64,000 nt of DNA from Candidatus Poseidonia sp. (GTDB lineage: Archaea > Thermoplasmatota > Poseidoniia > Poseidoniales > Poseidoniaceae): positions 1-64,000 of the forward strand of contig JADHPT010000010.1 in assembly GCA_016778305.1 (NCBI GenBank), given 5' to 3'. The notes below the pieces were generated by a model. That model ran no database searches and had not been told where the DNA came from. It was given only the letters and a program-made list of their open reading frames with translations. Of the stretch, positions 1,711 through 3,860 are shown piece by piece. A program made the position numbers and the translations under genes. Every line of letters starts with the position of its first letter. Within the stretch, counting starts at the first letter, position 1.

Positions 1711-2145
1711 ATGGAAAACAAAACGATGTTTAACGTAGAAGTAGCAGACCAATCTGGACATTCAATTGTCTTGATGAACCAAGAAGAAATTGCCAATAAG
1801 GCAGCCAGCGACAACAGCGCTTGGGTCTTCGTGAACGACCAACTTGTCAGCGCAGCTGATATTGCCGACATGGACCTCGAAGAGGGCAGCCGAATCCGCA
1901 TGATGCCAGGACTCGTTGGCGGCAACGACGCCCCGACCTTTGTCGTGCAAACCGCAGACAGCACCGGTCACAGCGAAGCGGTCATGACGCAAGCAGAAAT
2001 TGCCACCAAGGCAGCCAGCGACAACAGCGCTTGGGTCTTCGTGAACGACCAACTTGTCAGCGCAGCTGATATTGCCGACATGGACCTCGAAGAGGGCAGC
2101 CGAATCCGCATGATGCCAGGACTCGTTGGCGGCCAGTATTGCTAA
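1711..2145 (+). CDS. Tandem ubiquitin-like / ThiS-MoaD-like beta-grasp protein (two repeats)
   Basis: 144 aa made of two 70-residue repeats (about 2-71 and 72-141). Each has a short beta-grasp-like pattern: VEVADQSGH-type start, a helix (EIA.KAASDNS), WVFVNDQLVS, then DLEEGSRIRMMPGLVGG. The end of each repeat resembles the C-terminus of ThiS/MoaD/SAMP proteins and of ubiquitin, with Gly-Gly at 70-71 and 140-141. Only QYC follows the last Gly-Gly, like the short tail of ubiquitin precursors. I chose ATG 1711; a TATA-like gtttatatg sits at about 1668. The stop overlaps the next ATG (taatg). No E1-like, JAB or ThiF gene is in the window. Family membership is inferred from pattern, not proven. 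Confidence 0.6.
   Translation: MENKTMFNVEVADQSGHSIVLMNQEEIANKAASDNSAWVFVNDQLVSAADIADMDLEEGSRIRMMPGLVGGNDAPTFVVQTADSTGHSEAVMTQAEIATKAASDNSAWVFVNDQLVSAADIADMDLEEGSRIRMMPGLVGGQYC
1798..2133 (+). repeat. 126-base exact direct repeat (1798-1923 and 2008-2133)
   Basis: The two copies, spaced 210 bases apart, are identical over 126 bases, including all third codon positions. The first third of each 210-base unit (before gaaattgcca) is clearly diverged. This sharp boundary is what gene conversion or a recent partial replacement would leave. Confidence 0.95.
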
Positions 2146-2605: not shown

Positions 2606-3751
2606 ATGACGATGTGGCTTGAGAAGCACAAGCCACTTTTGTTTGATGACTTGGTGACTTCTCCATCTGTGATTGCAGCCCTTCGTCAACTCTCGCTTCA
2701 ATCCAACCCACCCCATCTGCTCCTCTCGGGGCCAACCGGGTGTGGTAAAACCGCTGCCTATCAACTCGTTTGCCGTCAAGTACTCGGCCCTTCATGGCGA
2801 GCGACAACACATGTGCTACAGGCGCGTGACTTGGCTAAAACTGCCGGCGCGATGTCGAAATTCGAAGCCTTCCTTCGTCCAGAAGGAAGCGGTTCAGACG
2901 ACACGCTTGCTGGACGCACCAGTCTTGATGCCTTTGATCACAACATCAGTTCATCCGCTGACGATTCGCCTCCACCTGCCGGGGAGGAATCATCGAGCGG
3001 AGATGCTGGTAATTTCATTCCCGTGTCGAGAATCATCGTAATTGAGGACGCCGATTATCTCGGTCATGCACGCCAATCTTATCTCCGCAGAATGATGGAA
3101 GAAAGCAGCCGTAGTGCACGCTTTATTTTCACAACACACACCCCTTCCCGTATGATTGAAGCCATGAGGAGTCGAACGCAGCACATCCGCATGCCCACTC
3201 TTACACGGCTGATGATCGAACAACGATTGGAATTCATTCTCGAACGAGAAGGACAAGCCGCTACCCTCGGTATCGTGGGCGATGTCGCACACGTTGCGAA
3301 TGGTAATCTTAGAAAGGCGGTTTTTATGCTCCAACTGCTCGCCCAACGCAACCTCCTCAACGATCGACGCAATGTCCAGACGCTCATGTCCAACAGCAGC
3401 CTGCGAGAGGTCCAACTGGTCTTGGAGGAGGCTTTACGTGGGCGCGTACATGATTGGAAATGGGAGCGCCAAGGCGAGAAGAGCAGTCGCGTTCTCAAAG
3501 GAGCGATGGGGGCTCTTGACCAATTGATGACAACGCATGACTTGGATGCTCGAGGCGTCTTGGACCGAATGCACCAATTCCTCACGGCAGGACGTTCTCA
3601 CTACGGCGATGAACTCCTCGCCTCATTGTTGAATGCCCTCTCAACGTGCGATACCGCCCTTCAACGCTCCGCCCAGCAACGAATTCAATTGGAAGAATTA
3701 TTTCATCAAATTGCTGAAATCGGAGCAGCATCAAACGCTCGCCAATCGTAA
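2606..3751 (+). CDS. RFC-small-subunit-like AAA+ clamp-loader ATPase
   Basis: 381 aa. The start WLEKHKPLLFDDLV matches the WxEKYRP motif of replication factor C. Walker A is GPTGCGKT at about residues 43-50. An acidic, Ser/Pro-rich insertion (about 95-135) separates it from Walker B IIVIEDADYL. Sensor 1 lies in FIFTTHTPSRMIEAMRSRTQ, and the lid and C-terminal helical collar follow. The Walker B ends EDAD rather than the usual DEAD, and the typical SRC motif appears as SRT. It probably loads or unloads a sliding clamp as a divergent RfcS paralogue; whether this is the main RFC subunit cannot be judged here. Confidence 0.75.
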   Translation: MTMWLEKHKPLLFDDLVTSPSVIAALRQLSLQSNPPHLLLSGPTGCGKTAAYQLVCRQVLGPSWRATTHVLQARDLAKTAGAMSKFEAFLRPEGSGSDDTLAGRTSLDAFDHNISSSADDSPPPAGEESSSGDAGNFIPVSRIIVIEDADYLGHARQSYLRRMMEESSRSARFIFTTHTPSRMIEAMRSRTQHIRMPTLTRLMIEQRLEFILEREGQAATLGIVGDVAHVANGNLRKAVFMLQLLAQRNLLNDRRNVQTLMSNSSLREVQLVLEEALRGRVHDWKWERQGEKSSRVLKGAMGALDQLMTTHDLDARGVLDRMHQFLTAGRSHYGDELLASLLNALSTCDTALQRSAQQRIQLEELFHQIAEIGAASNARQS

Positions 3752-3783: not shown

Positions 3784-3860
3784 GGGCGTGTAGCACAGCT
3801 GGATAATGCACCGGCCTCCTAAGCCGGAGATCGCGGGTTCGAATCCTGCCGCGCCCGCCA
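3784..3860 (+). tRNA. tRNA-Arg (anticodon CCT)
   Basis: Full cloverleaf. Acceptor GGGCGTG (3784-3790) pairs with CGCGCCC (3850-3856), the discriminator is G, and CCA is encoded at 3858-3860. The anticodon stem CCGGC/GCCGG closes the loop CTCCTAA, giving anticodon CCT (Arg, AGG codons). The T-arm has GGTTCGAATCC. No intron is present. It lies between the clamp-loader gene and a membrane-protein gene on the same strand. Confidence 0.96.

Follow-up and report, generated by a model that had tools for sequence, protein, structure and literature searches.

A probable polyubiquitin-like precursor and its partner genes in Poseidoniales archaea and in apparent viruses of this order

A gene encoding two ubiquitin-like (UBL) repeats in tandem was identified in a genome of Poseidoniales (Marine Group II), within the window analysed here, a stretch of 64,000 nucleotides that forms the first part of a contig in an archaeal genome of approximately 1.9 Mb. 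The gene (polyUBL; 1711–2145, + strand) occurs as a single copy in this genome and encodes a protein of 144 amino acids, comprising two repeats and a QYC tail. Our results favour the overall reading that its product is a polyubiquitin-like precursor, which is probably processed by a JAMM protease, activated by an E1 enzyme and conjugated to proteins. What was observed here comprises the repeats with their Gly motifs and tails, the homogenisation, the gene sets and gene fusions, the catalytic residues, the co-occurrence and the predicted folds; from these we infer that the product is cleaved, activated and joined to protein targets, with a candidate E2 taking part.

The translation of 1711–2145 agreed with the initial annotation, which had described two repeats each ending in PGLVGG and three residues (QYC) after the last Gly-Gly. 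Repeat 1 (1729–1923, +; profile match E 4.9e-27) ends in the internal Gly-Gly (1918–1923), after which cleavage would occur, and is followed by the five-residue linker NDAPT (1924–1938, +). Repeat 2 (1939–2133, +; E 1.7e-26) ends in the terminal Gly-Gly (2128–2133) and is followed by the QYC tail (2134–2142, +), as in ubiquitin-type precursors. The two 65-residue domains were 83% identical in alignment, and the DNA contained a 150-nt repeat (1774–1923 and 1984–2133; spacing 210) with 97% identity. This similarity was unevenly distributed. The last 39 codons (1807–1923 and 2017–2133, both +) did not differ at a single base, all 18 of the fourfold sites included, whereas the first 26 codons were only 63% identical between the two repeats. 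The same 26 codons showed 87%–92% identity to the same-position repeat in sister species, indicating that the repeat duplication predates these species. Judging from these comparisons, the C-terminal part of the repeats is undergoing homogenisation, as by gene conversion, so that the repeats evolve in concert. A plausible explanation is that the homogenised part is what a common E1 and protease would read.

An AlphaFold2 model of repeat 2 (residues 72–144 of the window protein; 26 sequences; pLDDT 72.6) showed a ubiquitin-type topology with a disordered Gly-Gly tail. Its elements (E5–12, E15–22, H23–32, E37–40, E43–45, H47–50 and E60–64) follow the order beta-beta-alpha-beta-beta-(alpha)-beta, a prediction of moderate confidence. 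The PDB matches of the model were mostly ubiquitin-like proteins (lowest E-value 0.008; TM scores mostly 0.4–0.6, with a top value of about 0.61), including Caldiarchaeum ubiquitin, UFM1 and a bacterial Ubl (8tyx). Thus, the beta-grasp fold anticipated from the sequence was recovered in the predicted topology and in most PDB matches, with modest confidence. A profile built from 42 repeats aligned in register with ubiquitin up to the Gly-Gly, with single-chain E-values of about 0.04–0.8. The predicted fold and the C-terminal Gly motif place the UBL among ubiquitin-like (beta-grasp) modifiers in the broad sense. The likening of the repeats to ThiS, MoaD and SAMP did not hold at the level of family membership, as all scores were below the NCBIfam cut-offs (moaD_arch: 16.9 vs. 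49.5 bits; SAMP1: 15.5 vs. 60; thiS: 14.8 vs. 37.45). Pfam Multiubiquitin was also absent from the matches of the window protein at E 1.

Two ThiF proteins scored above the cut-off in the same genome. The first was a MoeB/UbaA protein with a rhodanese domain (L038). The second, encoded on another contig (C17:5286–5921; locus L122), was a minimal E1 of 211 amino acids lacking a rhodanese domain, and its score against PF00899 (66.5 bits; cut-off 28.1) assigned it to the ThiF/E1 family. GxGG, D, N, K, D, R and Cys146 were invariant among its homologues, and Cys146 aligned with the cysteine of SCAEAGV in the MoeB/UbaA protein of the same genome. The cysteine of this motif is the catalytic residue in MoeB-type E1s. 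Membership in the PRTRC family was rejected (TIGR03736: 53.2 bits vs. cut-off 144.75). The E1 gene overlaps a gene for a JAMM protein (about 5.9–6.5 kb of C17, in the open frame L122:5825–6466; motif HTHPRFDAYWSGTD), in whose family E18, H56, H58, S66 and D69 were invariant, i.e., the glutamate plus HxHPx(n)SxxD signature of JAMM/MPN+ proteases. The own-genome protein had no Pfam match at E 0.1. A structure model built on a viral homologue (pLDDT 92.9) matched the Caldiarchaeum Rpn11 homologue and PfJAMM1 (E about 0.001). A 78-aa protein (SM; L122:6463–6699) is encoded after JAMM; proteins of this kind (about 78–99 aa) follow JAMM in many cellular operons and had no convincing match in viral loci.

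These genes are also physically linked to the UBL in relatives. In a sister family, a single-repeat UBL, E1, JAB and SM form one operon; some genomes encode an E1-JAMM fusion, and a UBL-UBL-E1 fusion was found in three genomes (L071, L075 and L076). Since these operons and fusions tie the C17 pair to the UBL, the MoeB/UbaA protein and a second JAB-like protein (L041:777–1568 on contig C2 of the same genome; HTHPNAPAIPSGPDAD; below the Pfam cut-off) were set aside as partners. The E1 (ThiF/MoeB) and JAB genes that the initial annotation had proposed to search for were both present in the same genome and co-occurred with the UBL across the order. Profile searches of 244 Poseidoniales genomes detected the UBL in 108, E1 in 111 and JAMM in 115; 99 genomes had all three, 122 had none, and E1 and JAMM were found together in 109. 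Fisher tests for co-occurrence gave p < 1e-42, values that overstate the case because the counts were uncorrected for relatedness, or for genome incompleteness (many genomes are incomplete). Even so, the joint absence of the three genes from many genomes is hard to explain otherwise. Among 390 genomes of the phylum, E1 was found at the search threshold in 64, all of them Poseidoniales, and no match was obtained outside this order.

A further family tracked the same genomes. A protein designated X is encoded between UBL and E1 at five loci (L086, L098, L104, L105 and L107) and belongs to a wider XC domain family with an invariant cysteine within an ICID-like motif, after which a GD is conserved. 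XC was present in 117 of the 122 genomes having any of UBL, E1 or JAMM and missing from 113 of the 122 genomes lacking all three. One copy, with its cysteine in the residues CIH, is encoded in the genome of the window (L220:5143–5937), and the gene immediately after JAMM at L225 also encodes an XC protein. Additionally, a UBL ending in GGG is fused to an X/XC protein at L113:2162–3241 (−), resembling a natural ubiquitin fusion. Proteins of about 800 aa with a central XC domain are encoded at L221:2213–4624 and L223:3565–5958, and many UBL-bearing genomes contain comparably long open frames that match XC. No canonical E2 (PF00179) was found in the genome of the window. In an HHalign comparison with eight E2 sequences as a yardstick, the XC cysteine was aligned onto the E2 cysteine (score 24.0, against at most 17.1 for 60 column-shuffled controls; P 0.003; probability 10%); XC matched the E2 structure 5v0r weakly (E 1.0) and had no match among the Pfam E2 families. 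XC may be a divergent E2 family, for which this weak sequence resemblance is a lead and not proof of membership.

The genomic position of the polyUBL gene differed among lineages. Its stop codon overlaps the start of a 70-aa gene (2145–2357, +; TAATG, with ATG at 2145), followed by a gene for the RNA polymerase subunit Rpo12/RpoP zinc ribbon (2405–2554, +; PF03604 over the cut-off), a conserved neighbour of multi-repeat UBL genes, and one for an RFC-like AAA protein (2606–3751, +), also a conserved neighbour. The region is flanked by tRNA-Asp (gtc; 20–94, −) and tRNA-Arg (cct; 3784–3860, +). The 70-aa gene had been labelled SANT-like, but no Pfam or NCBIfam match supported this; it was seen only at loci close to that of the window and thus lies outside the core system. 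Upstream, at 140–1564, a class II aldolase-domain protein has PSGPPSGPPSG repeats in an unusual run at its N-terminal end (about 370–540). A scan for sigma-70-type promoters around the polyUBL gene gave no match, although such a bacterial-type scan is uninformative for an archaeon. In most members of one family, the UBL lies ahead of Rpo12 and the RFC-like gene, and this stable location points to a housekeeping role there. The information-processing setting proposed initially is therefore real as a neighbourhood but specific to one lineage, as the UBL adjoins E1 and JAMM elsewhere. Four loci (L100, L102, L112 and L118, in genomes G217, G131, G227 and G177) contained an operon-type UBL-E1-JAMM set with XC genes upstream, in a genus that otherwise keeps the multi-repeat UBL beside Rpo12. 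The UBLs of these sets have an extension of 8–19 residues past the Gly-Gly. G131 and G217 possess both kinds of UBL, which suggests mobility of the operon-type set.

Related sets were also found in marine viral contigs. A search with the E1 profile yielded 266 candidate stretches with relatives, of which the best 80 were kept. Among these best 80 of 266, JAMM was located near E1 in 76 loci, the UBL lay inside the retrieved stretch in 17, UBL, E1 and JAMM were all present in 16, and an XC protein was present in most. Five of 13 distinct viral UBLs ended exactly at Gly-Gly, and three of the 13 precursors had cysteine as the last residue. The viral E1s formed one group separate from cellular E1s (95/91) in a sample picked by similarity. 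The contigs bear genes for a TFIIB-type zinc ribbon and Cpn60, as do Magrovirales (PMC10768690). An annotated phage collection contained no match to the UBL or the viral JAMM and only distant ThiF matches, in crAss-like and jumbo phages; consequently, the identification of the contigs as viruses rests on their gene content. By that content, the contigs with UBL, XC, E1 and JAMM apparently derive from magrovirus-like viruses with Poseidoniales as their presumed hosts. At L105, the genes UBL-JAMM-X-E1 occur together in a bin assigned to a cell (genome G101), and their JAMM looks viral in type (AYFSDTDWNTI); this set is possibly a provirus or a viral contig placed in a cellular bin. An earlier study reported that predicted genomes of archaeal viruses commonly carry ThiF/MoeB genes and suggested a link to ubiquitination (RaFAH; PMC8276007). 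Unlike the present set, the passage of that report names no UBL, JAMM, XC partner or host system. The magrovirus papers examined made no mention of ubiquitin or JAB.

The complete or near-complete sets in viral contigs raise the possibility, which we regard as rather doubtful, that this is primarily a virus–host conflict system, used for defence by the cell and for counter-defence or host takeover by the virus, with a logic like that of CBASS Cap2/Cap3 or Bil. A second operon copy in some genomes (L100 and L102) and weak, partial matches of E1 to PADLOC E1-E2 models are consistent with this idea. However, the stable Rpo12-RFC neighbourhood in the lineage of the window has a housekeeping look, and the UBL and JAMM had no PADLOC match. 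This alternative is about purpose and can hold alongside the mechanism proposed here.

An alternative function is sulfur carriage of the ThiS/MoaD/Urm1 sort, in which a thiocarboxylate on the Gly-Gly would serve tRNA or cofactor thiolation and JAMM would merely trim the precursor. Beta-grasp Gly-Gly proteins and ThiF-type E1s are common to sulfur-carrier systems, the best weak NCBIfam matches with a plausible link were moaD_arch, SAMP1 and ThiS, and a dual role is described for Urm1 in Archaea (PMC11354881). Nevertheless, the genome of the window already encodes a separate MoeB/UbaA E1 with a rhodanese domain, which the UBL-linked E1 lacks, and a separate MoaD-like protein, making sulfur carriage less likely for the UBL set. 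JAMM is conserved as strictly as E1, even in viruses, in which 5 of 13 UBLs would need no trimming, and sulfur carriage leaves the tandem precursors and the XC proteins unaccounted for. We therefore consider it unlikely, and conjugation with reversal by JAMM fits best as the function.

The wider family bears on the precursor itself. Among more than 100 retrieved loci, UBL genes contained one to four repeats. All 83 internal junctions in 62 distinct multi-repeat proteins carried the same motif as the terminus of their own protein (69 GG/GG, 14 AG/AG and no mixed cases). These matching motifs and the occurrence of homologues in 108 of 244 genomes indicated that the repeat structure is not a product of chance. 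The terminal motif of 111 distinct proteins was GG in 92, AG in 18 and FG in one; the terminal Gly, whose conservation was a key prediction of the initial annotation, was thus present in every homologue seen, with GG in most. A tail of 1–6 residues, variable in sequence, extended past the last Gly in 99 of 100 distinct complete homologues, and the single-repeat UBLs of E1-JAMM operons had tails as well. Cysteine was the last residue in 25 of 100 distinct cellular precursors (2140–2142 in the window), compared with a background frequency of 1.4%. Short variable tails and matching junction motifs give these proteins the look of a precursor in need of a protease. The family combines the head-to-tail repeats, processing-site motifs and tail of polyubiquitin-type precursors, in which cleavage itself is predicted. 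That the two-repeat protein instead stays whole as a linear di-UBL, with only the terminal Gly-Gly activated and the internal one a relic, is quite improbable: the linkers of 3–11 residues, the position-specific differences kept across species in the first 26 codons and the two-domain UBLs ISG15 and BilA (PMC11354881) would accord with it, but not the joint switch of internal and terminal motifs from GG to AG, the varying repeat number or the tails of single-repeat relatives.

In the precursor reading, the gene product would be a linear polyubiquitin-like precursor that the dedicated JAMM metalloprotease (C17) cuts past each Gly-Gly, at residues 71 and 141, releasing two free UBLs and removing the QYC tail. 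The dedicated minimal E1 would adenylate the exposed Gly and then take the UBL onto its conserved SCQ cysteine. The UBL would be joined to proteins, probably through XC with its invariant cysteine, and JAMM would remove it from them again. A more ambitious proposal, which we put forward tentatively, is that Poseidoniales possess a full ubiquitin-type cascade, in which the precursor and a minimal E1 are joined by a JAMM deconjugase and by XC as an overlooked family of E2s, frequently with several members in one genome, and that their viruses carry copies of their own to tag or untag proteins in infection.

Eukaryotic polyubiquitin genes (UBB/UBC type) consist of Gly-Gly-ended head-to-tail repeats with a short tail, variable number and within-gene homogenisation. 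The archaeal gene shares all of these features; it differs in its archaeal and viral carriers, its linkers, homogenisation of the C-terminal 60% alone and only marginal identity to ubiquitin. Precursors of this kind, with concerted evolution and a variable number of repeats, typify eukaryotes; the bacterial polyUbls offer a loose parallel. In the bacterial polyUbl operons, a JAB-E1 protein accompanies two or three UBLs in tandem, together with an E2-like domain that is inactive (Iyer et al. 2006, row 6e; PMC1779556). Tandem UBLs together with JAB and E1 are common to both, but the bacterial partner is a multidomain JAB-E1 protein rather than a 211-aa E1, the present UBL did not match Multiubiquitin, and its carriers are Poseidoniales and marine viral contigs. 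The Haloferax SAMP system comprises a Gly-Gly UBL, the ThiF-type E1 UbaA and the JAMM deconjugase HvJAMM1, without need of a canonical E2 (PMC4895103, PMC4443979). The Poseidoniales set is similarly composed, with no canonical E2 found in the genome of the window; in contrast, polyUBL falls well short of the cut-off for SAMP1, a UbaA-like E1 is encoded separately in the genome, and tandem repeats and XC are additional. Caldiarchaeum subterraneum has an archaeal ubiquitin, E1, canonical E2, Rpn11-like JAMM and small RING E3 (PMC5654768). UBL, E1 and JAMM are shared with that system, whose structures were among the best fold matches, but no canonical E2 (PF00179) was found in the genome of the window. 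Bil (BilABCD) and CBASS Cap2/Cap3 are likewise compact clusters of UBL-type conjugation genes with E1 and JAB, and BilA has two UBL domains as in the window protein; the E1 architecture differs, and neither the UBL nor JAMM of the present set had a PADLOC match. No report of a polyubiquitin-like precursor in Archaea was found in the mainly open-access literature searched, and its apparent novelty is provisional.

Poseidoniales are among the most abundant archaeal groups of the surface ocean. Our results point to a polyubiquitin-like precursor, with its own E1, JAMM and candidate new E2 family, in this abundant group. Because the proteins are small, the key steps are directly checkable. With the UBL set present in apparent viruses of these archaea, a contest between virus and host over the tagging of proteins becomes open to study outside eukaryotes.
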